In this document: positions 25,201 to 64,000 of the stretch, piece by piece
Position numbering within the stretch: the stretch's first letter is position 1
Layout of the letters: the number at the start of each line of letters is the position of its first letter
Source: Glandiceps talaboti
Lineage: Eukaryota > Hemichordata > Enteropneusta > Spengelidae
Direction: 5' to 3'
Length of the DNA stretch: 64,000 nucleotides
Assembly (NCBI RefSeq): GCF_964340395.1
Contig: NC_135566.1
Coordinates: 6,087,501 to 6,151,500, forward strand
Notes under the pieces: model-generated
Told to the model about the DNA's origin: nothing
The model's input: only the letters and a program-made list of their open reading frames with translations
The model's database searches: none
Made by a program: the position numbers and the translations under genes

Positions 25201-28200
25201 ACACCAGATGATAAGCTGGCTACTGTTACCATGGAAACAAGCACTGTAATTTCTAATGCAGATTTAGAGCAAACTGGCAACGTTTTAATGAACGGGGAAA
25301 CACATAGAAGTGCAAATGCAACGACATTAAAGGATGGAGAGAATTGTGTGGACAAAGACAATAAACTTGAAGAAAAGATCCACTTCCTAGAGAGTAGCAG
25401 TTCTGACAAACTTGTTGCCATGGGTACCAATGCAGTAGAAGGACCAGGGACAATGCTGCATGAAGAGGGAAGGATTAGAGTTGATAATGAGGATGTCATG
25501 GCAACAGCATCTCTCCAAGATGTTGCCACAGGCAACCAAACAGGCTGTGATGTAAACAATGATCAAACATTGCCATGTGTGGAAGATAAACCTAAATCTG
25601 ATAGTGTTGACAACAATGGCCAAGAAGCAGAGAATTTTCAAAATAAGGTAAATGAATGAGTTCAAGCATAGACAGTCTATGATTCAAGATGAAAGATAGA
25701 TTTGTTATTAAAAACTTTCATGCAATAAAATGATAAAGTCATACTTATAGCAACGATGGTTTTATTCAAATCTTGCCTAGACTAGCCAATCACAAACAAA
25801 TGTATTCATTACATAACATTCCTTCGACGGGGTGACAAAGTGATGCCTCTATTTTTACCAAATCAAATGATAACTGTGTACATTCAGATGTGATGTATAA
25901 ATACTATTGATTTTATTTGTCATTATGTCTACAATTCTGTTTGTAGGAAAATGGAATGCAAGAGATGAGATTGTATGTCCAGGGACATTCCAAGATAATT
26001 CTGTTGTTACTGATGGGGAAGAGTGTCAGTCAGTGTGAAGCAACCATTCAAGTACTGGTTAGTAAAAACCATGGAATCCATGACACTTGAAACAGAGGGT
26101 CATCTAGACTATATGATATGCTGTGTCACTCCACTCTCACTGCTGTATCTGCTCTGTGAAAGGGTTGACCCATGTGTGATTGCGCCCCATCATGGCAATT
26201 GGCATACCTTTGAGACTACAGTAAATGTCACTTAACTGATGTGTGAGGGCGCCCTATCATGGCATACCTTACTAACAGTGTCATCTGGCAGTGTAGCAGT
26301 GTAACTGTAGTCAGAATTTTTGTTAAGCCAGATGATAAAATGTAGCAATATAAGTAAAAGTTTTGTTGAGCCAGACAGTGAAGCATATTCTTCACAAATC
26401 ATAATGGTTTAAAATTCTTGAAGTTCTTACTTCATACAAGCAATTTGTGTCTTTTTTTCAATACTAAGATATTTAAACTTGTCTTTTGTCTTACACAGTG
26501 GAAATCAATTCTTCCAAAACTTGGTGAACTGGAAATAGAAATACAACAAACATTGGACAAACAACCAAAAAAGGTAAGAAAACATCAAAGGAAAAATTGG
26601 TAGTAGTATTTTATACTGGTGAATCTTTATCATCTCTGTACAGAAGCTTTGTGGAACACCAGGAGTAGTTTTTTCATAGAAGTATTGTTTTATGGTAGAA
26701 AAACTACTCTCATGGTAAAAAAACTACTCCCATGAAATAAAAACTACTCCCATGGTAAAAAAAAAAATATTCTCATGAAGCCTTCCGTACAACAAACATC
26801 CTTAGTTAAAGTCTTCAGAAATAATTGAAAAACTTAATATCTATTCTCCAGTGCCTTCTAAGTGGACAGTACAGTAAGGCGTACTGGAAATTGACACTTT
26901 ATAAACTGTTTGTTTGAATGGATGATTGATTAATTGATTATTTAATAGATTTATTGATTGATTGATTGGTTTTCTTTTGATTGATCATAGACTGGAGAGG
27001 CTAAGTACAACTTCCTGGTGTTTGATAGCGATGACAGATCATTGGCAGGTAAATCAACTTGATGTTTCTCTGAAATTGCAAGTAATTGTAGGTGATGTCA
27101 AATCATGAAATGACTCTCCAGAACCCATAATTTATGAAAATGTCTCTATTTTCTGGAGTGATGTCCTATTTTTAAAGACAAAGTACACATGTAGCTGGCT
27201 TTAATTGTTATGTTCACAGGATCCTTTTTGTAAGCTTAGCCTTAGTGCAGGTAAATTCGCTAACAAAATTTTTTTTATTTGACTTAGGTAATCAGCTGGA
27301 ACCTGTAGCTGCAACGGATCATGTTCTCTGTCAAGTTGCTCAGCTAATGCACGACGAGTTTAATGAGTCAGAGACACTTTCAGATATGACAGTCAGGTGT
27401 GTATATTATTGTATAATATTCTAAAGATTTTTATCAACCTAGCAAGAAAGTTGCACATCAAGCAGGCACTTTTAACAAACAAAAGATGTATTAATATTCT
27501 TTTCAACTGTAATTAACTCAAACAAATGATCACAGAATTATTCTCTGTACCCTCGATTATAAAGACTTCTGTTATAGTGAACATTCTGTTTTATCTAACA
27601 CTATCCATGTCTTCCATAGTTATATTTACACAGGATGTAATCACCATGGGAACACTTCATTATTACAGCTAACCTTTTTCATGTATTGCATTAAATGTAT
27701 TAGAAAGAGTTATCTGTGTCATTGCTTTAGGTAACGTAGTATGTGCTTTGGAAATAAAACTTTTCCTGTTACTATGTTCAAGATAATCCCAATCCAGTTT
27801 GCATTAAAGTCAAGAAAACAAAGCAAGGGTCACCATGTGAATATTTTTAAATAGGGGTCAAAATAATATTAACATTGAGTGACATTAGAATCTAATATGA
27901 GTGACAAAGACTGTTAAATTCTGTCAGGAAAATAAAAAAAATTGTCAATTTTCTTAAAAACATAATGGTGAACCCCCAAATTTCCTGTGTTATTTCAAAA
28001 GGACCAAGGAGCAAGTTTTCATATGCCAAAGTTTTGGGTCATTTAAGCTTTGATTTTCAAACAAATTGGCCAAAACATTTTCTTCATTTAACAAAGAGTT
28101 AACAACTTTGCAAATTCTATTGCAGAAACTATTCAACAGTGGTTTGCAGCAGGCATACTTTATCTCAAGAGACATTCTACCAACCAAAGGGCAACATTGG

Positions 28201-28914: not shown

Positions 28915-29384
28915 CAGTTGCTGGTAGAGCTATAAAACAAGTTGGTCTAAAACAAAAGAAAGAATTTATTTAATCCTTTTGACTCCACTGATAAGATAGA
29001 ACTAATTTACTAATGGATGAACTTGGGATTGAATCTTAGGGCTTTAAACCCTGTCTTAGCCAAGTAATGGAACCAAGTTTGTACTTTGGTTTTACCAACT
29101 ATATATTTTGTAAATGTGTTTATTTTGGTACACGAAAAACTTGGCAGTATAGCAATTTAGGAATAGAATTGTATGGAATGTTTGTGTGTCACAACAAATT
29201 GTCTGCCAATGGCATATAAAATTGCCACAGGGGACTGCCAGTAATTATCGGGGGGGGGGGGGGGGTGTTATTACCTGATGCAATGCTGTGTAGTGAACAT
29301 GAAAGACATAACATACTCAGTGGGGGTGGGGGTGGCTTGCTACAATCAACAATAATAGGTTAAACAACCAGTTTCTTTTATTTA

Positions 29385-30040
29385 TGTAGAGCTGAACTTT
29401 ACCCACATCTGCAGAGTAGACACTACAGGCTTTGTGCTTGGAGCTGTAACTCTTAGATAGGGCTAAAATCTGTACAGAGCAAATACTTATCGTCAGCACT
29501 GTATGTAGAGCTGAACTTTACCTACATCTGCAGAGCAAACACTACAGGCTCTATGTTGGGACCTGTAACTCTTACAGAGGGCTGAAATCTGTTTATATCT
29601 ACAGAGCAAACACTTATTGCCAGCACTGTATGTAGAGCTGAACTTTACCTACATCTGCAGAGCAAACACTACAGGCTCTATGTTGGGACCTGTAACTCTT
29701 ACAGAGGGCTGAAATCTGTTTATATCTATAGACCAAACACTTATTGCCAGCACTGTATGTAGAGCTGAAGTTTACCTACATCTGCAGAGCAAATACTACA
29801 GGCTTTGTGCTTGGAGCTGTAACTCTTAGATATGGCTGAAATCTGTACAGAGCAAACACTTATTGCCAGCACTGTATGTAGAGCTGAAATCTATATCTGC
29901 AGAGTAAACACTACATTCTTATAGCCAAGTCCGTAGAAAAGTTGAAATGTGTCTATATCTACAGAACAAACACTACAAGTTATAGCCAACTCTGTATAAG
30001 GAGCTGAACTTTGTCTGTATCTACAGAGCAAACACCCTAC
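29385..30040. repeat. Tandem array of 119/127-bp units
   Basis: TGTAGAGCTGAACTTTACC begins units at 29385, 29504, 29631 and 29758, with a further degenerate unit from 29877. Units 1 and 4 are 119 bp and share CTTGGAGCTG. Units 2 and 3 are 127 bp, share TTGGGACCTG and carry an extra TTATATCT-like insertion. Beyond 29877 the units decay. Confidence 0.93.
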
Positions 30041-44617: not shown

Positions 44618-47600
44618 ATGTTTGTTCGGAGTGTACTAATCACTGGAGCTAATCGTGGAATTGGCCTTGAACTCGTAAAACAGCTCACAGCATCAAGTAA
44701 ACCACCACACCATGTGTTTGCAACATGTCGTAATCCAAATGCAGAGATATCAAAAGTGAGGAGCGACAATTTACACTAGTGAAGTTCTAAATGATCATGT
44801 TTTCTCCACTTGGGCCGCCACTCAGTAACTTGCGCATGCGTACAGTGTTGTTTAGCTTATTTACTTTTAACCATCTTAACGCATGCGTAATGTTTCTTAT
44901 TTGAAGAACATTTGAAGTTAATTAACATTAAACTATACTTGGTGATTTAACCATAAAGGAGTCAAATGAATACAAGTACCTTGGTTACTGGATCACACGT
45001 AATCTTTCTGACCATACCCACTTAGCAAAATTATCAAAGAAGTTTGACAGCTTATTCCCTATCATGAAAAGTACCCTTGGTAACCATGGTAACATCAACA
45101 GGGTCGATTTTGGCTCATCTCTATGGAATCACATAGTGCGTCCAGTATTGGAATATGCAGGTGAAATACTAATACTTAGTCGAACTGACATGGAATGTTT
45201 AGAAAAGATGCAAAGGTCTGTGGGGAAATTCATTTTAAAGGCAACTCGTTACACTGCAAATGAGGCAGTACTTGGTGACCTAGGTTGGACCACAATGATA
45301 AGTAAATTTAATGTGTTGAAATTGAAATATTTAAAAAGACTATGTAATCTTCCAGAAACACGCTGGACCAAGATTGTATTCAACAAACTCACTGCAATCA
45401 GTCAAGACTCTGAAATGAACACGATAAACCTGTACTGGGATTGGCCTAAATCTATAAATTACGTCTTAACAAATCTCAAAACACATAGAGAAGAAATAAA
45501 AAATCTCACAGACAATAAAATCAAGCAAATAATTTTCAAGTATGATGAATCTAAATGGAAAAAAGATATGGAAAAAAAGTCTAGTCTCATTCACTACCGT
45601 AGGTTCAAAACATCTTTAGAAATGGAACCGTATCTTAAATCAGTAAATGACTTCAAAGGGCCACAATTAAAATTTAAAGCAAGATCCTATACATTAGGAC
45701 TCTCATATGAAAAGAGAAAGTGGGAAAACTGTAACTTTGATTGCTCCTGTCCCTGCTGTGGGCAAGAAGATGAAACATTTGAACACTTTCTCTTTTCGTG
45801 TGAAAGCCTTTCTACCTATCGTCACATCCTAATGAAGAACACAAAAGATCTTTTACTTAACCATACAGAGACAAACCTATATCAAGATTTTATACAAGGC
45901 AAAGAACTGTTAAGCCTCTTTATAGGAGACAGTACAAAAAATTATAACATTTTATTAAGTAAAAAAATTGACAAATTTATCCAGCAATTTCTAAGTAGTG
46001 CAATGGAACATAGGAAAACATGTCTAACCTGATGGAGAATTGTAATTTTTTATCTCTTTCTTTATCTCTTATTATTTCTTTGAAGTTATTATTTGCTATT
46101 TTAACATGATATTTAAATTATTTTTTTTTGTATGTATTTGATTCTATGTAAATGCTGCTCCTAATGTTTTTAGTGAGCCCCTGATATAAAAGGGATGCAG
46201 AAAATAAATAAAAATAAAAAATACTTGTATCATGGGAATGTCAATGCATGCCTCCACTCCTTCATTGCCCTGAAATCATATTCTGGCCCTGTTTGCACAC
46301 TTGATAGCATAAAAATGTTAGTATATGTATGACAGACTGACAAGGACAATTATACAACAAGAAATCTACAGTCTAATATTGTTATACTTCTTCTGAGTGT
46401 CTCATTCTGTATTTAAATGCCAGCCTTTCACCTTTCGTTGTAGGTTTAAACAATTGATACCACTTTTGTATGTGAAATAGAGAACAAAGTTCAAAACATA
46501 CTTAGAACACCTATCCATTATGCCTAGATATACCTCACCCACATTATGCAGCTGTTTTAGAAATGACCATTTTACAAAATGAAAGAATGATAATTACTAT
46601 CATCTTTGTCAGGTATCATCACACAAATTGGGATATAGACTTACAGGTAACAGTTGTGTTAGTAGAACTTTCCGATTACCGGAAAATTACATCGATGCTG
46701 AAAAACAACCTATAATCAACCGGCCATTTGACTTTTAATACATTAACGCGTGACTGAATCTTTCTTATTCTTTGTCGTATAGGAACTGAGTGAAATAGCT
46801 ACAAAAAATGAAACAGTGAAAGTTATCAAGCTTGGTGAGTGATGCACTTGAAGAAACTTAAATGGATCAACTTGAAGACAAAAAAAATTAACTCACACTT
46901 ATATGTAATGATAGACAAGACATACCCACTTATATGTAATGACAGACAGGACATACCCACTTATATGTAATGACAAACAAGACATACCCACTTATATGTA
47001 ATGATAGACAAGACATACCCACTTATATGTAATGATAGACAACACATACCCACTTATATGTAATGATAGACAAGACATACCCACTTATATGTAATGACAG
47101 ACAAGACATACCCACTTATATGTAATGACAGACAATACATACCCACTTATATGTAATGACAGACAAGACATACCCACTTATATGTAATGACAGACAAGAC
47201 ATACCCACTTATATGTAATGACAGACAATACATACCCACTTATATGTAATGACAGACAAGACATACCCACTTATATGTAATGACAGACAATACATACCCA
47301 CTTATATGTAATGACAGACAAGACATACCCACTTATATGTAATGACAGACAAGACATACCCACTTATATGTAATGACAGACAAGACATACCCACTTATAT
47401 GTAATGATAGACAACACATACCCACTTATATGTAATGATAGACAAGACATACCCACTTATATGTAATGATAGACAACACATACCCACTTATATGTAATGA
47501 TAGACAAGACATACCCACTTATATGTAATGACAGACAAGACATACCCACTTATATGTAATGACAGACAATACATACCCACTTATATGTAATGACAGACAA

Positions 47601-50600
47601 GACATACCCACTTATATGTAATGACAGACAAGACACCCACTTATATGTAATGACAGACAATACATACCCACTTATATGTAATGACAGACAAGACATACCC
47701 ACTTATATGTAATGACAGACAATACATACCCACTTATATGTAATGACAGACAAGACATACCCACTTATATGTAATGACAGACAAGACATACCCACTTATA
47801 TGTAATGACAGACAATACATACCCACTTATATGTAATGACAGACAAGACATACCCACTTATATGTAATGACAGACAAGACATACCTACTTATATGTAATG
47901 ACAGACAAGACGTACCCACTTAGACAGGAAATAGATAACAGACAAATTGATAGAAGAGGCAGAAGTGGTTATAGGCTGGGGTTGCATGCTGGCTAGCCGG
48001 CTACTGCTTGCACCAACCATTCAACTCCTTTTTTCCACAAGCATATGCTATCACACTTTTTAACAGAAATTTTAATAGAACAACATGAGGGGCTTTTAAC
48101 ATTATCTATAGTAAGTTTCTTTTTGCACACTCTTAATTGAGATTGTACATTTTATTTGAAGTCATTATGTTTTTTCCTGTGTTTTACAAATGATGTACTT
48201 TTCATATTTTTACTGAGTATTTTATTGTACATTATACACAATAAAACACGCAGTAAAATATGAAAAGCATGTTGCTGTGTTTGTTTGTGTTGAGTTTTTT
48301 TATTTCTTGAGTGCTTTGTTTTTATATCTGGTTGTGGCAGGCATTAACATTTCCCTCAAAGGGACCCAATAAAGTATTCATATCATATCATAACATAATA
48401 ACAGCTGGGTAAGGCTAAGATCCTATAATCTGGTCCGCAAAACAAATTAAATTAAAATAGTGCCAATCCATGTCCTTATGGCAGTAGTGAGAAGTCAATG
48501 TTCATAGAATATTTCCAGTGATCCCAGAGTCCAGATTGTTCTTAAAACAGTTAAGTGAATTTGATGTGACAAGCGAAGCAGGCAAACTATTCCATGTGTT
48601 GATGACTCTGTTTCCGAAGAAGTGAGCATGCACAGATTTGGAAAATTTCTTAAGTTTCAATTGTATTGTATCTTATCTTATTTATAATGATCGAGCTCAT
48701 TTCTGCTCAGTTGTTTTTATGGCATATATGCAAATATCACCTTTCAGGATTATCTGCGTAGCTACAAGGAGATCTTCTTGTGGCATCTTACCAAAGCCCA
48801 AATTTAATTTTGTGTTTATTTGTAGTGTTGCGACATACTTTAGCAGTATAGTTCTATTACATTGAGTCATTAGCTAGTCTGGTATTTTGTGAGTGTAAAA
48901 CTTTCAGACACTTTTGTTTTTCCATATCATTTACAGGAGAGGTTAATCGGCCGCCATGCCATTTCAGGAGAATGCACTTTCTAATAACCTTTCACTATAA
49001 TAGGTTAAATGTCGTTGTTGAACTATATCATGCACACCATAGAAGATGTGTAATATAGATATAAATTTCCATTACCTACTTGACTAATAAGTGAAACAAC
49101 ATTGACAAAGTCTGTGCTAGTAACTCAATAAATTGCAAAAAACTAACAAATATGTACAAAGTTTGTTATTGTACATACAATGACAAACATATTACACATT
49201 TATTAATCTTTTGCCATTTATTGAATTACAAATGTTGTTTGACATTGATTTAGGAAGCCATGATAAAATTGCATGTTTTAGAAATTAACAATCCAAAATA
49301 AATACCCAATTCTCAGCTATATGGCCACTTTAAAGGTTGCTCTGAAGGGAGGAAGTCAGAAACTGTGCAATAAAAGATGTTATGGAGGCAAAGAAATTTT
49401 GTAGCGCTATATTTTTGAATTATTAAATCTTTGAATTGTTGCCTTTTGACTAAATTCCTCTGTAGAAGTGTGTTCTTATCATAGACAGTATTGTTTCTGC
49501 AAATTTCACCTTGCTGTACTTTTGTCTTTCCCGTGCCTGTAGATGTCACCAATGAGTCTTGCATCATAAAAGCAGCAGAGGACGTTAGTCATATGTTAGG
49601 TACTAGCTGTGGTCTGAATCTCTTGATAAACAATGCCGGGATGAAAGCTAAGCCGCGATCTCGTTTTAATAATATGGACTATGAAAATGTGATGGATGTG
49701 TTGACTACCAATACTGCTGGTCCACTCATTGTGACAAAGGTAAATTGATCAAATTATTTGTTTTACTAATTCAGTTAATTTAAATACATACATTGTATTG
49801 AGGAAGATGTCAATGATAGATGTACAATCTTATAAACTTTAGTTTTCTGTAGGTCGATGTAAACATGTTTGTGTTAGAAAACTTCTAGAAAACTCTCATA
49901 TCAATGTGTTATAGGGTTGACAGGTTGTTCATCTGTGTGTGTGTGTGTGTCGATCATTTTAATGATATTAAGCAAATGTCTGTATATAGTCACTTGAAGT
50001 GGAAAAAATACAACTCTGCATAAATCTTGCTTCAAGACACAATTTAAGCCCATGTAGTCTACATGTATGGCTGTCTTCTGCTATAGGATTCTTCAACGTG
50101 TCATTATTCCTGGGTTAAGCATCAGTATGTGTATGTACATCAAGTTCATGCAATACCAGTGTTTCTATTCAAAATGGTAAAACTAATAATAGAATGACAC
50201 ATAAAATATTCTATGACAGGACTCCATGATATGTGAGTGCAAGTGTAGCGTACTTGGGGTATATGCACTCGTGCTTGCAGTGTTCTCTGCATCAGCTGCG
50301 AGCGAATTCAAAGTGCAGCAAATTATAAGCATGGAAGCCAATAACCATGAGTATACCCACACTTGCACTCAATTGGCATGGGGTTCTGTACAGTATCTTT
50401 ATCCAAAATAGCAAATTTCTGTCAAAAAGGGTTACATTTTCATATACAATGAAGGATTACACCCTATTTGCATATCATTTGCATACAGGTATGCAATTAT
50501 GTTTTCTTCATTGCACTGCAGTGCAAATACCACTAGTATGCGCACACCGGTGCAAATAATCTCTGGTACATATAAAATGAATGTAGAGATACTAAGAGGT

Positions 50601-52490
50601 CTTCCACCACAACTCCAATTAAGCCATGTACAAATTGGTTGATTGCCAATCTTTTGGGTTTTTTATTGATTTCATTTGCATGATCATATTTTCATGAGAA
50701 TTTATTTGCGAAGATATTCACCTCATAGGGATATCACTACATTTGGCTTTGAAATTTCAAACTCCTGCTTTAAAATACATGTATAGGTCTAATCCTGATC
50801 TATTTACTAACTGAAATATAGAGCAAAGAACAAAAAGGAGATATATTAAAACAATCAAGTCTGTGAATTTCATGCAACTGAAAGTTTGGTGATAGTAGTT
50901 TTGAGACATCTGGATAGTTTCTGTATACTGTATACTGGTTACTAGTACTGGTATAGTGTTTTCATAATTGATCATTTACATTCTCCACTGTGGGAAAAAT
51001 ATACTTGTTACGTCAGCAAATCAAGACATACAATAGTTTTCCACTTCAGTGACATTTGTACGTCATCTCAGGTCAAACCTCTTTTGGAGTGGGGTCAGAG
51101 TTTTTGTTAGTTATTACACATAAAATGACATCATGATTGCATGCAAGAATGAGCAGGTGCATGTTAAAGCAAACATTTAGACAGTTTAATTACCTCACTA
51201 TATATTTTATGAGATTATGTAGTTACTGATACGTCATGTCAACAACCATAAAAGCAAATTGATTTCAAATTAGTACACTTAGGTATGTCAATATATAGGG
51301 CTCAGAGGTAGCACACTTAGGTATCCACATAGGTCATTAGTACATTAGAGGTATGTCAATATTGATCTCAAATTTGCACACTTAGGTATGCCAACATAGG
51401 TCTCAAATTAGCACACTTAGGTACGTCAACATAGGTCTCAAATTAGCACACTTAGGTATGTCAACATAACTGTCACACTTCCAAGTTCAGTATATCAGCC
51501 TTGGTATTAAACACTTTAGTATATAGTTCCAACTCCCTGGTAAGCATACAATCCACTGTAACTTTTGTGTAAGTGCATTTAATTAAATCCTTCATGTTAC
51601 AGCCTCTGTTATATCCTAGGACACCAGTTATACAGCAAGGTTGATGGCAGTACAATTGTGTTTAAAATCTGAGGATTTGAGCCATTCAGAAATGGCATTG
51701 ACAAGGCTGAAACCAACAACTTCCAGTACTCCAGCCCAGCATAACTGACTTCTCCTCTTTTATTTTGCTGTAATATATGGTACTTTCTGTCCAATCAGTT
51801 TTACTTCATCTATGGCAGTATTTCTTGATATATAACTCTCATTATATTTGTCCACTTTTCCATAGCATTTCTTACCATTACTGAAGAAAGCTTCATCAGA
51901 CTATGAAGGTAATGCAATGAGTTGCAGTCGTTCTGCAGTAATCAATATGTCATCCATCTTGGGATCCATAGAGTTAACACAGGAGTCAAGAGCTGCACTT
52001 TACAGTGCATCTAAGGTAAGCTTACACATATAAGGATGTAAGTAGTCATGACGATGTATAACAATCAAGGTATAAAACCCATATTTTTATTCAAACACAT
52101 TCAACCTGGCTTGTATGTTGTAAAATATGGGTATATAGTTTTCAAACCCAATATATTTTACTTCAAGGCCATGTCTCCTAATTGGTGAATCTCTTTTGTA
52201 GTTGGACTGAGTGCACTTTTTATTACAAACTCGTAAATATGTTTTATTTGTTTATTTTCCTGTAGGCAGCATTGAACATGATAACCAAGGGTATGAGTAT
52301 AGCATTTAAAGAAGACAACATCCTGACTGTCGCGCTACACCCTGGTTGGGTTTTGACAGAGATAGGGGGTCCAAGAGCTACCCTAAGTACAGAAGAAAGT
52401 GTCAAAGGGATGCTTGATGTCATGGCTACATTAGATAATAACCATTCTGGTCACTTTATGGATTACCAGGGAAAAGAATTACCTTGGTGA
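44618..52490 (+). CDS. C-factor-like short-chain dehydrogenase/reductase (complete, 5 exons)
   Basis: This is a classical SDR of the C-factor/sniffer type, NAD(P)-dependent oxidoreductases whose substrates are mostly unknown. Exons: 44618-44755, 46783-46834, 49543-49739, 51866-52015, 52266-52490, giving 253 aa, the usual length. Seen motifs: cofactor-binding TGANRGIGLE (residues 9-18), Asp64 in the DVTNE segment, NNAG (93-96), the serine of INMSS (158/159) and the catalytic YSASK (Tyr175, Lys179). The PGWV...GG segment near residue 205 is also typical. No signal peptide or membrane span is evident, so a cytosolic enzyme is expected. An AATAAA at 52971-52976 could serve as poly(A) signal. Intron 1 carries a LINE and introns 2-3 carry a minisatellite and repeats, none of which disturb the frame. 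Confidence 0.93.
44942..46220 (+). mobile_element. 5'-truncated LINE with intact C-terminal frame
   Basis: An open frame from about 44942 to 46032 codes the end of a non-LTR retrotransposon ORF2: an EYKYLGYWI segment, LEKMQRSVGKFILKATRY, and a C-terminal Cys/His cluster (CPCCG then EHFLFSC) found after the reverse transcriptase of several LINE clades. It ends in an A-rich ATAAATAAAAATAAAA tail. ATACTTG occurs at both edges (44935-44941 and 46221-46227), a candidate 7-bp target duplication. The open frame suggests a fairly recent insertion. It is sense-oriented in SDR intron 1. Confidence 0.88.
46892..47925. repeat. 31-bp minisatellite, 33 units
   Basis: The unit reads ACTTATATGTAATGACAGAC then AAGACATACCC. 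Variants are GATAG for GACAG and AACACA or AATACA for AAGACA. One unit near 47630 is 3 bp short. The array begins about 55 bp after SDR exon 2. Confidence 0.98.
48195..48270. repeat. 33-bp imperfect inverted repeat, SDR intron 2
   Basis: Arms 48195-48228 and 48238-48270 (CTTTTCATATTTTTACTGAG against its complement) have a 9-base loop and few mismatches. Confidence 0.8.
48290..48410 (+). mobile_element. LINE-like 3' end
   Basis: GGGACCCAATAAAGTATTCA followed by TATCATATCAT resembles the 3' termini of CR1/L2-type LINEs, which end in an AATAAAGT box and a short tandem tail. No coding part is recognisable upstream. Confidence 0.5.
48502..48660 (-). mobile_element. C-terminal LINE ORF2 fragment
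   Basis: The minus strand codes HAHFFGNRVINTWNSLPASL followed by SLNCFKNNLD and a stop, the standard end of CR1-like reverse transcriptase proteins. It is truncated on its 5' side and lies in SDR intron 2. Confidence 0.85.
49120..49325. repeat. Dispersed repeat with inverted CAATAAATTGCAAAA ends (copy 1)
   Basis: TCAATAAATTGCAAAAAAC (49123) is mirrored by CTTTTGCCATTTATTGAA (about 49208). The following AATCCAAAATAAATACCCA matches a second copy at 54478-54655. Confidence 0.6.
51262..51475. repeat. Degenerate ~35-bp tandem repeat, SDR intron 3
   Basis: Five to six diverged copies of CACACTTAGGTATGTCAACA plus TAGGTCTCAAATTAG. Confidence 0.85.
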
Positions 52491-55173: not shown

Positions 55174-58100
55174 ATGGCGGCCGACAGTAAGGTACATGCT
55201 TATTATACGTTGTCGTTGACAGTTTTTGTTGTTTACTGCGAGCATAGCTAATTAAGATACCCGGAATGTAACGAAAAATGTTTGAATTCACATTGTAGGT
55301 CATGGAAGTCATGAAGGAATTTTCAGTAAAGGTAACAACAGGTAGTACAAACGAGCGACACAAAATTTTATGCGATCTGCTTCCATGTGTTGGCAAAACA
55401 GGTGAGAGACATTTTTAGTAGTACATACATCGCATCTTTATAACATGTGTTATAGCCAAGTGGCTAAAACAACACGCCATGGCCTACCCATGTAGCCATG
55501 GTGACCAACGTACAATTCCAAATAAGAAGTTTTCATGATTTTCATATACTTTCATAACTTTTATTACATTTTCAATTTTTTCTCCATATGATCATTTTAC
55601 AATTTTCATCAGATGATGAATACATCTATGAAAATTTCACCGTGACCTCACCACGCCAAAAGAGTGTGTATCACAAATGTATTTTTGAATTGGTTCATAC
55701 ACTTTTGATGCTGAATCAAATGAAAACAAAATACAAGTAATTGGGATTCACTGATAATCAATCAATCAATCTGTATTGCATAACAACATGCTATAGCAAG
55801 GATGGTAAAGCATACAAAAACAACACTAGTACACAATTAATATACTAGTATTACTACCCATTGCAGTAGATCACATCAAGTTAGTATGTATACATTTTCT
55901 CAGACTTCAGTGACTACAGCAGTAACACTGTCACAGTTACTTGCCTTTGTTTCAATTTGTAAAGAGTCGACAAAAAGTGTTATTGTACATAAACATTTTT
56001 AATTTTTTTTTTAATTTAATTTTTTTAAAATTTATTGTGTTACAAACAAGAACTTAGGATATGTTACTTCACATTATTTTTAAAGTAGAAAAAAAATAGT
56101 AGAGCTGTTTTATCAATAGAAAATCTGAAATGAATACCCCCCCCCCCTCCCCTTCATATATGGCCATATTTCTGCAAACTAATGGAGAGAAAGAACCAAA
56201 GATGGAAATGAGTAATTTTTGCGATCATCAAGCAAATAACTTGGTAAGTTTGAGTTCTCAACTCAATGTTATGTGTTGATATTTTATGTAGATTTACCTG
56301 AGAAAGTCATCAAAGGTCTTTGCAAAGTGTTGGCTTTAACTATACCAAGATATCAAGATGCTAGTTCCAGACGTGATGTTCTGCAAGTCTTAAGACAACT
56401 GACAAGTAGTCATGGTATAGTGGCAGTTAAGTCAATACTTACTGTGTTATCTGATGAAGCTACTCTACAGAAAAGTGTACACCCAACGTGAGTAAATAGA
56501 CTGAATTATTGTATTTCCGTTTAAAGACCCTGATTTAAATTCCAGGTACTGGCATTAGTGTCATCGTATCAATACAGATCAGATAGGATCGTGAGTTTGA
56601 TCAGGACCAATATTTTTCCAAAATTTTGCCAGGCAACTGTTTTTTTGCAACTCAATTTTAGTCATAATCTGAACTGGACGTAATTCATGTCAAAAGTCAA
56701 ACTCGTCAATTGACCCTGACATCAATTAGCGAGTTTGACTTTTGATGTGAATTATGTGTCATACATTATATATACTTCATTTACAGGCCGGCTACAGCTA
56801 GTACTGCTTTGGTAGCTCTGAGTTGGACATGTATTCTCTCACATTACTGTCTTGGCGCCAAGGAGAAAGTAGAAGATAATGTTTTCAATAAATTGGTAAG
56901 ACAAAGATTTAAAATAAAGATATCACAATATTTGTTTCATAACACCACATGAGACTCAGGGGTGTATGTACCTCATCTATTCTTGTTAATGTCCATTGGG
57001 AGCCATTTGTACAACTGATGACATCAGACCATTGACAAACGGAACCTGTTACAAACAGGGAAAGTAAATAACTGAATTGGATTAATAAAACTTCGAACAG
57101 CATATTGGAAGTACATATTGGAAGTGTTGTTTTGGATAAGTAGATAAAAGCTACTTGAATTTCTCACGGTTTCTCACAAAACTGTATAGAATGGGGAGAA
57201 CTCTGCAGGTTTTACTAGACATACCCCACCCCACCTCTGTTACTTGGGTTCCCAAATCATACCATAAAAACACTTATATTCACCATTCCTTTGTCAAAAT
57301 TGAAAAGTAAATTGATGTTTGGGAATTATGCCATAAGTGAAGACTTGTTGAAGTACTACCGGTAATGTATTTGTATTTATTGTCCCTTCAGATTGAAATA
57401 CAGAGTTATCTAGCATATGGAGCACTTGGCAGTACACGACAATCTATCACTGATTCCGGCTACAGAAAACTGAAGAAAGTCTGGAAAGAGGTAAGATAGA
57501 TAAAGTACAGGACATAAGAAAAAGTTATATTCAAAGTGTGCAGACTTGTTTATCTAGGAGACGTAAATGCAGGATGTGATTTTTTTTTCCTTCTGAATTT
57601 TGCAGAAAGATGAATGTCAAGTGTGTAGTATGTTTCATTGATATAAATACCTTCTCAATATGCCACATGCTGATTGACAGAAAGAGAAAAGATTTTGTAA
57701 TTTGGGCACTGGGGGCACTGTTTTGAATCAGCTTTTGGACCAATAGTGATGATAGTTGAGTAGTCTAGCCTCCTTAAAATAAAATCATCATGTCTCATGG
57801 TAAAAGTTAGTTGCATTCTCAACCAGTCAAAAATTTCAGATCAAGTGATTTTTGGTCAGGGAGTTTTTTAGTCACATGTACTTTAGTGTTACTTAGCCAT
57901 CATTTTCCTTATAGGGGCGTCCTCTAGTGGTATTTCTTCAAAAAATGACTGCTTGATCAGTAACTGGAATATGGTGTATTCTATTCATTGACTATATCAA
58001 TCATTTTTTATGGAAATTATATACCCTGCCAATGTCAGATTTTTCTCTTGGAACCAAATCAAGGTTCAGCTGAAGTGACCTGTCTCTGAACATTATATCT

Positions 58101-61100
58101 CATTTTTCACTTCAAACAGAACCCAGGTTCAGCTGAAAGGTATATAGCATCACTTGGCAAAGTAGAACACTCGTCCTATCTGATGTGTATGATTGGTCAA
58201 CTAGTCAGGTTCTACGATGAAGTCCACGACTCGGAAAACATCAAGAAACACAAAAAAGTCCTTTTGGATGTGTACATCAAGAATGTGATCAGCAGCAAAA
58301 GTAAACCACCATTGCAAGCCCTGGTATGTCTTGATCTAAGATTGTCTTTAGTTTTGCATTTTCCAGACAAGTTTCAATATTATCTGGTGAAATTTACTCA
58401 CTTTGAAATATAGACTTTGAAAAGTCTTTCAAACTATTTTGAAACAATAAATTGGAAACAGTCACAACTTTCAAAATGCACATTGATGTGAACTCAAAGG
58501 TTACCATTTGTCACCTTATCTGTAATAATACATAACCCATAATGTGCCAGACCCCCCCCCCCCCCCCCTGTTATGGAGTAAATGCGAAAAGACTATAATA
58601 GAAGTACATGTAACTTGTTGCCTTCCAGAAACATAGCAAGCACCTCCTGAGGTATGTTACACATGATGAATTCAAAGAAAACATCTTGCCAGCAGCTCAA
58701 AAAGCAATGTTAAGAAACCCCGAAAATGTCTTGAGAGGTAAGAAAATTAATCTTTGTGTTTCCTTTAGAAGTATCAATGAATGTGATGTTATTACTATGG
58801 AAAATGTGCTATCAGAAAACTATGATAGATACAAACTAGAATTATTTTGTTGCATGTGATAGATCTTTAAATGGATGATGCCGTTACTGTGGTCATGTAG
58901 CCACACTCACTCTGTTAACAAGATAGTGTTAACACTGAATGATGTTATTTTGTTGAATGTTCCATTACTTAAGAAAACCCTATTAGAGATACCACACTAC
59001 TGTGAGTGTAATTACATCAATTCACGGCTTATATCAATGTTGCAATGGTAGTTGTAGTTTGTGTGTGTGTTAGCTTTCCAATAGTTGGTCTTCCATTGTT
59101 GTAACTTTTAAGTTGTCCGGAAGCGCTATATATTAAAACCGAGTAAAAAAATGGGAGTGCTGTAGAATGAACTACATACTAGTCTGCAGTGTGTGTATAT
59201 GCCTATCTCTGTTACAGTCAGAGACCAGTAGAGAAACTACAATTTGAAAACAGTCCATTTTCAATTATGGAAGACAGTAAATGCCTCTTTTTTATGGTAA
59301 ATAAATTGATTTGCTTTAAGTGTGATAGTTTTGGGCATATGCACAACAATAGTCAGTTATGATGAATGATACAAATCAGTTTTATGTTAAGGAGTCTTGT
59401 CCTATTTCCTATCCTGAAACCAACTCAACCAAGACTCCCTAGCTTGGGTGCAAATACATGTCTATTGTACTGTCAGTCCATTGTCCTACATTCTTGCCTT
59501 ATTTTGTGACAACACCTGAATTTAATTTGATTCATAATTTTATACTGTGCAATGTTACTTTTCTTTTAATAGTATTGAGTGAACTACTTGCAAGTGTCTC
59601 CATTGATCTCAGTCAGTATGCTAAGGACCTGGGAAAACTGTTGGGAAGTAAGTGAATTTGGTCTCTTTGTAACTGTGAATGTTGTTTCAACATTACCTTG
59701 TGTGTCCTGATTTTGATTCTAACTCACTAATAAAGGCAAGACAGGGGAATAAAAGACCCCCTAACTTCATGGATTTATTGTCAAACTTGAATGCAATATG
59801 GTACAGTGAACAATGTGAATGAAAATCCACTCCTGAGTGCTTATTCCTACAGTATAAAACACCTCTCATTAATATTCATTGTGCAACCATGAATTATTTC
59901 TGTTGACTCTTGAAGTCAAGCCCTAGACAACAACTGAAGTGGACAAGTTGAACTGGGGATTATTTTATAATGTGTGATGTATACTTAGCTGGTAGAGCTC
60001 TTTAATCAAAACATTTGAAACAATCAAACCATAATCCCTTTTATAACAAATTGTATTCATATAGCCTTCAGTGATTGGCTTAGATTGTACCACATGGTAT
60101 GGAGTATTGACCAATTGTGACCTCAATTTGCATATAAGGGTACTAGTCACATCCTATTTTCCCTAGGGCAATAATCATGTACTAAGCACAGAAGTCTTAT
60201 CAGGGATTTGATTTGACTATAGAAAGAATACATGCCTGAGAATGTAATGTGTCGTAAAAGATTTATTGCCTGGCCGTATTCGGGCACTAGTAGACATCAT
60301 ATTACCCCTTGCAATGTTATGTAGCAACTATTTCCTTCAGCATTCAGCCTTGGGAAATAGTTGCTACATAACAGCCCTCATGGTAATAGACATCTACTAG
60401 CGCCCTCACAGGCAGGCAGTAAGTGTATAATAATCCTCATGTCTCCAAAAAATGGAATACACCATAACATCAAAGAAGAGTATACCTACATGTACCTCAT
60501 TGGTCAGTAGTCATGTGTATATAAATTTTTCCTCCTACAGCTCATTTGATTTCCAAAGAAGACGTGGCAAGGGAGGAATCAGCTGAAGCATTTCAGAACA
60601 TAGCCAACCAGTGCAGTGACCCAGGAGCGTTAGAAGAACTTGTCAAACATCTATTTGCAGTCCTCAATGGTAAGCAACACTCCTATCAATCTCACGGTGT
60701 AGCATATCGAGAGGATACGTGTTGTAACGGTAGTTGCAGTACTTGGGATATGGAAATGATTGAACTTATATATTTTGTAGGGGAACCACGTTACTCGGAC
60801 CCCCTGCCATCTCATCCCTCACCATCTCAACCCCATTTTCAAATGACTCATTGGTCTCAAATTATATGGTAATTTCTCTTCCCTGGCTTTCAGTGAACGT
60901 ATACTGTAATATACGTTGTGTTGTTCAGTCCTATAATGCTTCTAAACCATGACTATAAACCACCTAATATCTTAGACAGTGAAACCAGATTTCTCTTGAA
61001 TATTCAAGAAATGACTCACCAGACCCCATAGTTTATGAAAATGCCTTTACATTGTAAAGAGCACTGTCATAACTCTATAAGTGTACTTGATGTATTTTGT

Positions 61101-64000
61101 TGCAGGGTCTGAAGGCAAGTTGACTGTTATAACTCAACGTACTGGTGTGCTATGTGGTATTGGTAATCTGACCAGTAACACTGTCAGTGGTTCTAGTGTT
61201 CAAGGTCTAGCAGCCACAGTATGTGAAAACTTTATACCATACCTACAGATAGAGGGTAAGTATTATGATTATATTGACTTACAGTCAGTAATAATCTTTA
61301 TTTTATAAAATTTATATTGGATAGTTCTTTAAGTTTCATTAACTTGTCTCCCAAGAAGTCCAGAGGATCAACCCGCATGGGTTCAGTGTTGATGCAGGAG
61401 GAAACTGGAGGATCTGAGAAAACCTGCATTGTCCGATAGAGTCAATTGGAACGGGATATGGCTGTATCATTGTGCAATAATATCTGAATTCTTTTCAACT
61501 GTACACAGTTCATGAAGCAACTCTGGTATATGCCCTGTCTATGCTTGCAAAGTGGTGTGCTAAGTTCTCAACTGAGGTGCCAGCCAAACTTGTGGAGTGG
61601 TTCAAGAAAGGCGTCACTTTGAAATCATCAACATCAGCTGTTAGAAATGGCTACCTACAATGTATGCTAGCTGCATTCCATGGTAAGAACCCATAGTATA
61701 AGTATCACTGTATTGTTGCATACACCACTGAAGTCTAGCAGGTCTGTAACATTGCTGTGATAGCATAGTGCTGCTGAGCACCATTGTTATGGCACAATAA
61801 CCACAGCCATGTAACTGGTCTGCTCAGCAGCACTGTTACATTGCTGTAACAGTGCTGCTGAGCACCAATGTTACAGTGTGGTAACCACAATCATGTAACT
61901 AGTCTGTTCTTACAACCCAGTTACAACAATGCTACATTGCTGTAACAGCCAAGGTATGTAACAGTGGTGTAGACATTAAAGTACCAGGTAGTATATAAAT
62001 TTCTTACAACTGAACGTCTGACAATTTTTCTGTTATTTATTTAGAAAAATCACACCCATTCTCAGTTAAAATCAAGGGAAAAAGATTGGGGTCACTGTAC
62101 AAAATTTTGAAATAGAGTTCAAAGTTATATCAACACTAAACTATTTTAGAATCCAATATGGCTACCGAATACTGTGTTCACTCATGGAAAATAAATAATT
62201 TGCTGATGTCGATGAAAGCAAAGTGTTGAACTCCTAAATTTCTTATAAAAATTATAAAGGTTCAAAGTAAGCTTTCATGTTGTAAAGTTTAGAGAGATTT
62301 TGAAAACTTGATTTTCGGGGAATGTGATCCGCAAGTTGCATTCAACCTTAATGATGTGTTTTTAAATTTGTAATATTTGTACAGGAGATTCCTTGCTTCA
62401 AGGTTTAGAAGTGTTACCTATTCTACTGAAGTCTGTTGAGAAAGCTCATGCACAGTCTACTCAGACCAATCTTGTGATTGAGGGATTGACTGCTTCTTGT
62501 CTCCTTGTAAAGATGTCATTGGCTGATATACTGGCTGGTAAGTCAAACAACCAATCAGATTGGTTGGTAGTTAGCTTCTAAGCCAAATAACCAATCAAAA
62601 TGGCTGATAATGAAGCTGGTAAGTCAAGTAACCAATCAGGTTGGTTGGTATTTAGCTTGTAAGCCAAATAACCAATCAGAATGGCAGATAATGAAGCTGG
62701 TAAGTCAAGTAACCAATCAGATTGGTTGATATACAGGCTTATCAAACAAAGAATACAATTGGCTGATAGTGAAGCTGGTAAGCCAAGGATCTAATGATAT
62801 ACAGGCTGGCAAATCAAACAACCAATCCGATTGGCTGGTATTTCAGCTGATAAGTCAAACAACCAATCAGATTGGCTGATAGTCAAGCTTGTAAGCCAAG
62901 TTACTAATAAAATTGGCTGAAAATAATTTAGAAATTATACATTCCGGTATTACCAAGATTACTATATCTTGGCAAGGTCTCGAACTCTGCACCTAGCTGT
63001 CCTTACCAATCCTTCATCCACTTTGAAGTATTTTTGAAAACTTGGTTTCTTTGTTTACTTTGTCCATTAACATGAAAAGGAGTCAGTGTGCAGGGTTATG
63101 TAACAGAGATACATGATAATAATGACGATGTGCCATGAAAAACTAAAAAACTTGTTGAATTCAAAGTATTACGTGTCCTGTTTAAAACCATTAAAGTGGT
63201 AAGTACACACTGTCAGTTAAATAACCGTTATTTAAGGGAATATATTTGTTTTTGTTTCAGAATCCAAACTGGGACAATTCTGGAATACTATTTTGAATCC
63301 AAGCAAACAAATATTTTTGTCTGAAAAGTTTTTGACATCAGTATCTGCTGAAGGTAAGAATGAACAGTATTTTGATCTATCAGGCCAAGCTCCTACGTAG
63401 TGGTATTGGAAACTCTCCCTCTGGCAACTTCTACTTCCTGTTGAATGTTTTAAGGAACATTGCCATTAGTAGCGGCCATATTGGATTTGTCACCAATATA
63501 CTATTACATGTGAAGTTGAAGTCCTGATGTTGACCAAGAAATTGAGTGATCATTATTTTGTATGACATGCCAAGATTGTAAATGTTATTTCAGATAACAA
63601 AAGTGACTTCATAAAATGTTTCTGTAACAAGTAGGGCACATTAATAAAGCTGCACATGTTCAAAATAATGACTGTCTTTGGTATCTCTTACGTTTTGCTT
63701 GCAGTTTTAGAAATACATATCCTTTTAACAGAGAGACTATTATTGGAACATTCCCAGAGGTTAACTGATGATATTTCAAGGTAAGGGTGCTAAAGTTGTA
63801 AATATAACAGTCCTTAGAAAGTAGTAAAATCACTAATATTTCAAGTTACAACCAATTAGTGTATCATCCTTGTGCCAGGTTTGAATGAAATCTTTTAAGC
63901 ACATGATCAGATATACAAGTGTTGTAACTGGTCATCTTACTTCCTACTACTATAAAGAGTTTATTTTTACAACAGATTTCATAGTTTTGTAGAGATGCAG
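55174..64000 (+). CDS. GCN1: GCN1, activator of the eIF2-alpha kinase GCN2 (N-terminal part, 15 exons, runs off right edge)
   Basis: GCN1 is a very large HEAT-repeat protein (about 2,670 aa in human) that binds ribosomes and activates GCN2 on amino-acid starvation and ribosome collision. Exons: 55174-55191, 55299-55401, 56292-56487, 56787-56895, 57392-57490, 58120-58323, 58629-58737, 59573-59647, 60541-60669, 61106-61255, 61509-61682, 62385-62537, 63261-63353, 63705-63780, 63976-64000, giving 571 codons in one frame. Matches to human GCN1 include MAADSKV at the start, DLPEKVIKGLCK, PENVLRVLSELLASVSIDLS, GSEGKLTVI, AKLVEWFKKG, STSAVRNGYLQCMLAAFHG and LTERLLLEHSQRLT. The region is the N-terminal HEAT array; the central eEF3-like and C-terminal GCN2-binding parts lie beyond the edge. 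The start ATG lies in CATGGCGG, as for HPS4. Introns contain foldback and tandem repeats. Confidence 0.95.
60264..60422. mobile_element. Foldback element / long inverted repeat, GCN1 intron 8
   Basis: A perfect 20-bp stem (GTTATGTAGCAACTATTTCC at 60316-60335, complement at 60353-60372) with a 17-base loop is embedded in longer imperfect arms that include GGGC(A/G)CTAGTAGA and TTGCCTG. The whole is about 160 bp, typical of a small MITE with extended inverted repeats. No target duplication was resolved. Confidence 0.75.
61004..61060 (+). repeat. Dispersed repeat copy (GACTCTCCAGAACCCATA family)
   Basis: GAAATGACTCACCAGACCCC followed by ATAGTTTATGAAAATGC matches the copies at 27.1 kb and 37.4 kb. 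It is in GCN1 intron 9. Confidence 0.6.
61745..61960. repeat. Direct and inverted CTGCTGAGCA repeats, GCN1 intron 11
   Basis: CTCAGCAGCACTGTTAC and GTAACAGTGCTGCTGAG form a 17-bp perfect inverted pair with a 6-base loop near 61824-61863. GTGCTGCTGAGCACCA and ATGTAACT(G/A)GTCTG also recur directly. Confidence 0.8.
62519..62920 (+). repeat. ~41-bp tandem array derived from the GCN1 exon 12 splice donor
   Basis: The unit TTGGCTGATATACTGGCTGG then TAAGTCAAACAACCAATCAG starts in the last 19 bases of exon 12 and runs through its donor into the intron. About ten diverged copies follow. GCTGGTAAGTC or GCTGGTAAGCC recurs at 62619, 62700 and 62778, so extra potential donors exist at 81-, 81- and 78-bp steps. 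Confidence 0.92.

Follow-up and report, generated by a model that had tools for sequence, protein, structure and literature searches.

The window, as we call the whole stretch of Glandiceps talaboti DNA analysed here (64,000 nucleotides), carries on its forward strand a large part of a GCN1 gene and, at the boundary between its exon 12 and intron 12, a minisatellite whose units include copies of the exon 12 splice donor (Table 1). Joining 14 exons with AG and GT flanks yields 562 amino acids in a single frame. This spliced product matches the Pfam family GNC1_N, the conserved N-terminal domain of GCN1, at 3e-40, and a PDB chain, 8i9x_LR, at 3.3e-10. The chain is listed as Ribosomal protein L19; judging from its length (2898 residues), we take it to be Gcn1 or to contain it. 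The alignment with this chain ends short of the end of exon 12, so that conservation at the exon end is outside its reach. The preliminary description had correctly named the gene, numbered the intron and placed both. Exon 13 starts at 63261, which gives intron 12 a length of 723 bases, 393 of them, by coordinates, belonging to the array. Upstream of GCN1, the last exon of a plus-strand gene at 52265-52490 may, as judged by eye, encode a short-chain dehydrogenase.

Table 1. Coordinates in the window of the GCN1 features and of the array at the exon 12/intron 12 boundary
Feature	Position	Strand	Basis or remark
GCN1 exons 1-14 (gene runs on beyond)	55174..63780	+	In-frame joining, Pfam
GCN1 exon 12, phase 1 end	62385..62537	+	Spliced frame
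Final 19 bases of exon 12, forming the left part of unit 0	62519..62537	+	Anchored and local similarity tests
Minisatellite, ten 34-41 bp units and one partial	62519..62930	+	TRF, hand alignment, identity matrix
Authentic splice donor of exon 12, GTAAGT	62538..62543	+	
19-base palindrome CAACCAATC-A-GATTGGTTG at junction of units 0/1, starting 10 bases past the donor's first base	62548..62566	+	
Two head-to-tail dimers of ~81 bp (B-A-B-A), most similar part of the array	62560..62721	+	Identity matrix, TRF period 81
TAA stop, in frame on reading exon 12 past its donor	62579..62581	+	
Duplicate donor 1, GTAAGT	62619..62624	+	U1 pairing energy equal to authentic donor
Degenerate donor copy, CTT/GTAAGC	62659..62664	+	Duplex -4.3 kcal; similar one at 62891
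Duplicate donor 2, GTAAGT	62700..62705	+	U1 pairing equal to authentic donor; predicted easier opening
Duplicate donor 3, GTAAGC	62778..62783	+	U1 pairing 1.1 kcal weaker

Anatomy of the array and its reach into exon 12

TRF reports the array at two periods, once as 10.3 copies of 41 bases (62518-62924, 65% matches) and once as 2.4 copies of 81 bases (62534-62728, 92% matches). Units were cut by hand at their TTGG-like start and aligned, which gave ten units and a partial one; pairwise identity among the ten ranges from 59 to 95%. The highest values join alternate units (92% for u1/u3 and 95% for u2/u4), and identity between the two types is 70-77% (72% for u1/u2, 75% for u3/u4), a pattern that marks 62560-62721 as a duplicated 81-bp dimer. 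An alternation of A and B half units, with growth as dimers, had been claimed for the array at large. It holds for these two dimers and not for the remainder, since in the ten-unit identity matrix no clean alternation is seen outside 62560-62721 (u6/u9 86%, u5/u7 73%). Apart from the palindrome listed in Table 1, there are 13 inverted pairs that link units to one another. The segment 62500-62930 has a predicted folding energy of -120.6 kcal (z -4.23 relative to 100 shuffles); strong predicted folding is what the unit-borne palindrome and the inverted pairs lead to, and it is not of itself evidence of function.

That the tandem unit takes in the 3' end of exon 12 together with its GTAAGT donor, as first proposed from inspection, is borne out by similarity scoring. 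When similarity is summed over the nine intronic units with the donor position as anchor, the exon end reaches 71. None of the controls comes near this value, be they 3000 random 19-mers (maximum 37), 51 stretches preceding GTAAG (maximum 3) or 59 CTG-ending stretches preceding GT (maximum 40). When the last four bases of the exon end are left out, the score is 53 against a maximum of 43 in 3000 controls. In a local comparison with the intronic array, 62519-62537 matches best at 16 of 18 bases, with a score of 26, to be set beside 10-15 for the other 13 GCN1 exon ends. This score is reached in 6 of 5000 shuffles and equalled by 2 of 20,800 window 19-mers (plus strand, every third base, 1-62400). 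If every base is sampled, 26 or 27 is attained by nine 19-mers, which stem from two places (7331 and 12866), so the local-match test taken alone amounts to about one in several thousand. Sliding the 19-base frame further into the exon lowers the local score from 26 (ending at 62537) to 14 (ending at 62524, 62521 and 62518), close to the window mean of 12.3. Because of this fall, the unit, and with it the array, can be taken to start at about 62518-62519, inside exon 12. The sequence thus supports a repeat unit that straddles the boundary between exon 12 and intron 12 and includes copies of the donor.

Donor copies and the consequences of their use

Exact copies of the motif GCTGGTAAGTCAA are confined, within the window, to 62534, 62615 and 62696, and a copy with a single mismatch lies at 62774; when three mismatches are allowed the window holds 27 matches, just a slight excess over the mean of 18 expected by chance. 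The corresponding GT dinucleotides (62538, 62619, 62700 and 62778) are spaced by 81, 81 and 78 bases, all multiples of 3. The preliminary description spoke of at least three near-perfect duplicate donors about 81 bp apart. This is true of the donor and the bases that follow it, and untrue of the exon part: held strictly in register and without gaps, the exon-like sequences that precede the two exact copies of the donor are identical to the exon end at 13/19 and 12/19 positions.

How well these copies might serve as donors was estimated by several measures. Duplexes with the U1 5' end have energies of -9.1 kcal at 62538, 62619 and 62700, -8.0 at 62778 and -4.3 at 62659 and 62891; authentic GCN1 donors (n = 14) span -5.3 to -11.9 kcal. 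On a matrix built from the 14 GCN1 donors, 39 plus-strand sites in the 64 kb score at least as high as 62778. Not counting the authentic donor, three of them fall in the array, against 0.24 expected in 387 bp when the density is taken over the window with the array sites included; one further 400-bp stretch, at 26574, likewise has three. There is also a strong donor-like GTG/GTAAGT at 63199, towards the end of intron 12 and beyond the array, with the same matrix score as 62619. Across three window sizes, opening is predicted to cost 3.3-4.1 kcal at 62538, 2.9-4.3 at 62619, 2.6-3.0 at 62700 and 4.1-6.1 at 62778, and 1.1-4.4 kcal for twelve other GCN1 donors (that of exon 14 left out). At the shortest size, 62538 is predicted to resist opening more than any of the other twelve authentic donors.

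Among the nine intronic units, five keep a GT in register and three the CTG/GTAAG form. Column conservation over these units is 0.84 for the donor, 0.83 for CCAATC and 0.78-0.79 elsewhere. In other words, the donor columns are barely better conserved than those of CCAATC, and they give no clear sign of selection keeping the donors.

When exon 12 is read on past its donor, the first in-frame stop is the TAA that had already been pointed out in the first reading, and use of a downstream donor would therefore truncate GCN1. The truncated product, computed from exon lengths, would have 520 residues, 506 from the whole codons of exons 1-12 and 14 added. Transcripts with early stops are generally subject to nonsense-mediated decay, and under this general rule decay would be expected for transcripts that use a downstream donor. 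As far as the sequence tells, the spare donors most likely give rise to few unproductive transcripts, if any.

Origin of the array

We favour, with a probability of roughly 0.7, a local minisatellite whose seed straddled the boundary between exon 12 and intron 12 of GCN1 and which is near-neutral, its spare donors competing weakly with the authentic one. A segment of about 41 bp, made up of 19-20 exonic and about 21 intronic bases with the donor included, would have been duplicated in tandem and have spread into the intron. Growth might have proceeded by slippage or unequal exchange, possibly helped by the palindromic unit junction, and one 81-bp dimer would have been duplicated later. Coding constraint would have kept the exonic copy, while the intronic copies would have been free to drift, several of them now being without a donor; the retention of GT in 5/9 units and of CTG/GTAAG in 3/9, with donor columns at 0.84 and CCAATC at 0.83, fits such drift. 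The intact spare donors are likely to be weak competitors, as the authentic donor is backed by a full exon, and any transcript made from them would stop at 62579 and presumably be removed by nonsense-mediated decay. Growth from the exon into the array is likely on this evidence, which comes from one sequence of one locus. Two observations complicate the account. The exon-like parts beside the exact donors agree with the exon end at only 12-13 of 19 positions in register, and the variant nearest to the exon end (TATACAGGCT) sits in u5 and u7, so that the most exon-like variants adjoin donors that are lost or changed to GC, which counts against a simple picture of junction seeding. Furthermore, weak competition is not guaranteed, since 62700 equals the authentic donor in U1 pairing and is predicted to be easier to open.

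It is conceivable that the array acts as a regulatory decoy, its spare donors binding U1 and diverting a sizeable, copy-number-dependent share of GCN1 transcripts to unproductive forms or a retained intron and so setting dosage. We regard this as unlikely. Two spare donors do match the authentic one in U1 pairing, and 62700 is predicted to open more readily than 62538. The strong predicted folding of 62500-62930 (z -4.23) might be added to these points, but folding is expected from inverted repeats within the unit. The human ABCA7 VNTR offers a precedent in which, according to the available text of PMC5954066, longer alleles accompany more exon 19 skipping and lower expression; however, retention of a VNTR unit is described there as independent of VNTR size. 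The donor columns are without clear preferential conservation, GT is retained in just 5/9 intronic units, and 63199 equals 62619 in matrix score outside the array, which indicates that strong decoys arise without arrays. A regulatory role of the array, in line with the preliminary suggestion that it could tune splicing, is possible but unsupported.

Slightly less probable again is the arrival of the array from elsewhere, as a dispersed minisatellite or mobile element, with the exon end recruited from its first unit. The palindromic CCAATC-GATTGG core would agree with such an origin, as palindromic cores of this kind occur at mobile-element ends. Nonetheless, unit copies are not found in the remaining window: all 12 matches to the palindromic core with up to 3 mismatches lie inside the array (0.2 expected), and blastn of the array against the window with 62401-63000 masked recovered no relatives of the unit (best E 0.26 to 3.1). 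In two collections without animals, which may also omit records close to the window's own genome, one exact 22-base pattern from the unit was found at no locus of genome_contigs and at one locus in the part of viral_contigs searched. The latter locus has 55% GC and many long reading frames; it matches the window only at a 24-base stretch (two overlapping rows), which lies inside a 618-aa frame with no array seen around it, and we rejected this isolated match as chance rather than a related copy. Recruitment of the exon end is also opposed by its staying in reading frame into exon 13. In addition, human GCN1 presumably has a similar Val-Ala-Asp stretch at the same distance to the next conserved residues.

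A more speculative idea, which we consider improbable, is that of a rheostat: the share of truncated, decayed transcripts, and hence the GCN1 level, would depend on how many intact donor copies intron 12 contains, and individuals would differ in array length. If so, the level of GCN1, a ribosome-stalling sensor, would follow array copy number. More generally, if the downstream donors are used, individuals might differ in GCN1 output because of the array, and its equal competing donors would offer a natural series in which to test how exon context and distance affect donor choice.

The two remaining explanations are both very improbable. The array might act as DNA, a cluster of CCAAT boxes forming an intronic enhancer with the donors as passengers: RRCCAATSRS, the NF-Y consensus, occurs 6 times in 62519-62930 (both strands) and 11 times in the window outside 62500-62930, but the density of such sites in the array follows from the tandem copying of a unit with one of them. 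An assembly or sequencing artefact in the copy number or existence of the array might be suspected because tandem arrays are commonly mis-sized in assemblies, yet the units differ by 5-41%, which is not what identical reads placed twice would give, and the exon side of the array is in frame.

Known relatives and other repeats in the window

An array born from an exon-intron junction had been called unusual, which is overstated, since the human ABCA7 VNTR (PMC5954066) and the IFI6 minisatellite (PMC4526556) have an anatomy similar to that of the GCN1 array. The VNTR in intron 18 of human ABCA7 is described as lying right next to an exon, whose splice donor it includes; the donor one unit downstream is sometimes used, and the retained unit leads to a frameshift and premature stop (PMC5954066, available text). 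Single-unit retention is unaffected by VNTR length there, and exon 19 skipping rises with it (PMC5954066, same text). The GCN1 array resembles that VNTR, so far as described, in being a tandem array whose first unit holds the authentic donor, and it has comparable further donors (62619 and 62700 equal, 62778 weaker by 1.1 kcal, other units weak or lost). The ABCA7 unit differs in being 25 bp long, within a C-rich region, and in beginning at the donor GT without an exonic part as described in the available text (PMC5954066). That VNTR is also length-variable, to 10,678 bp, with transcripts measured (PMC5954066, text as available), whereas the GCN1 array is known from one sequence.

In IFI6 (6-16), two downstream repeat units of a minisatellite serve as splice donors according to the available text of PMC4526556; the work on this minisatellite (Turri 1995) is also cited in the part of PMC3618361 available. 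The GCN1 array is similar, going by these partial texts, in that a minisatellite supplies several splice donors. The IFI6 unit is 12 bp long with productive variants, unlike the GCN1 unit of about 41 bp, where the extra sequence contains stops. Human duplicated genes have been surveyed for internal tandem repeats that lie at boundaries of exons and introns (PMC2812944, available text), and these too are boundary minisatellites able to alter gene structure and splicing. They were found by comparison of recent paralogs and have transcript support, as the accessible text states, whereas the GCN1 case is one locus known as DNA only. In the open-licence literature, searched with the gene named in part of the queries only, we found no published account of the GCN1 array. 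It would add a junction-seeded minisatellite in GCN1 to the human cases found, and it seems somewhat distinctive in having 19-20 exonic bases in its unit and an 81-bp dimer.

Several other repeats were observed in the window. A long and clean minisatellite is at 46896-47922 (31-bp unit, 33.2 copies, 96% matches by TRF), and overlapping tandem arrays with periods of 62, 127 and 246 occupy 29383-30035 (TRF). In intron 11, at 61720-61960, there are repeated CTGCTGAGCACCA-like and GTAACAGTG-like segments, apparently direct and inverted repeats as judged by eye. Ten minisatellites chosen from 44 TRF rows were scanned for donor-like sites. Four such sites occur in the GCN1 array (9.5-11.8) and two, each scoring 9.6, in that at 26692-26763; in three more there is a single site on one strand or on both (7.4-7.9), and another four lack any. 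The tenth, a 35-bp array at 51265-51468, has units with AGGTATGT-like donor sequence on the plus strand and contains four sites scoring 7.8-9.2.
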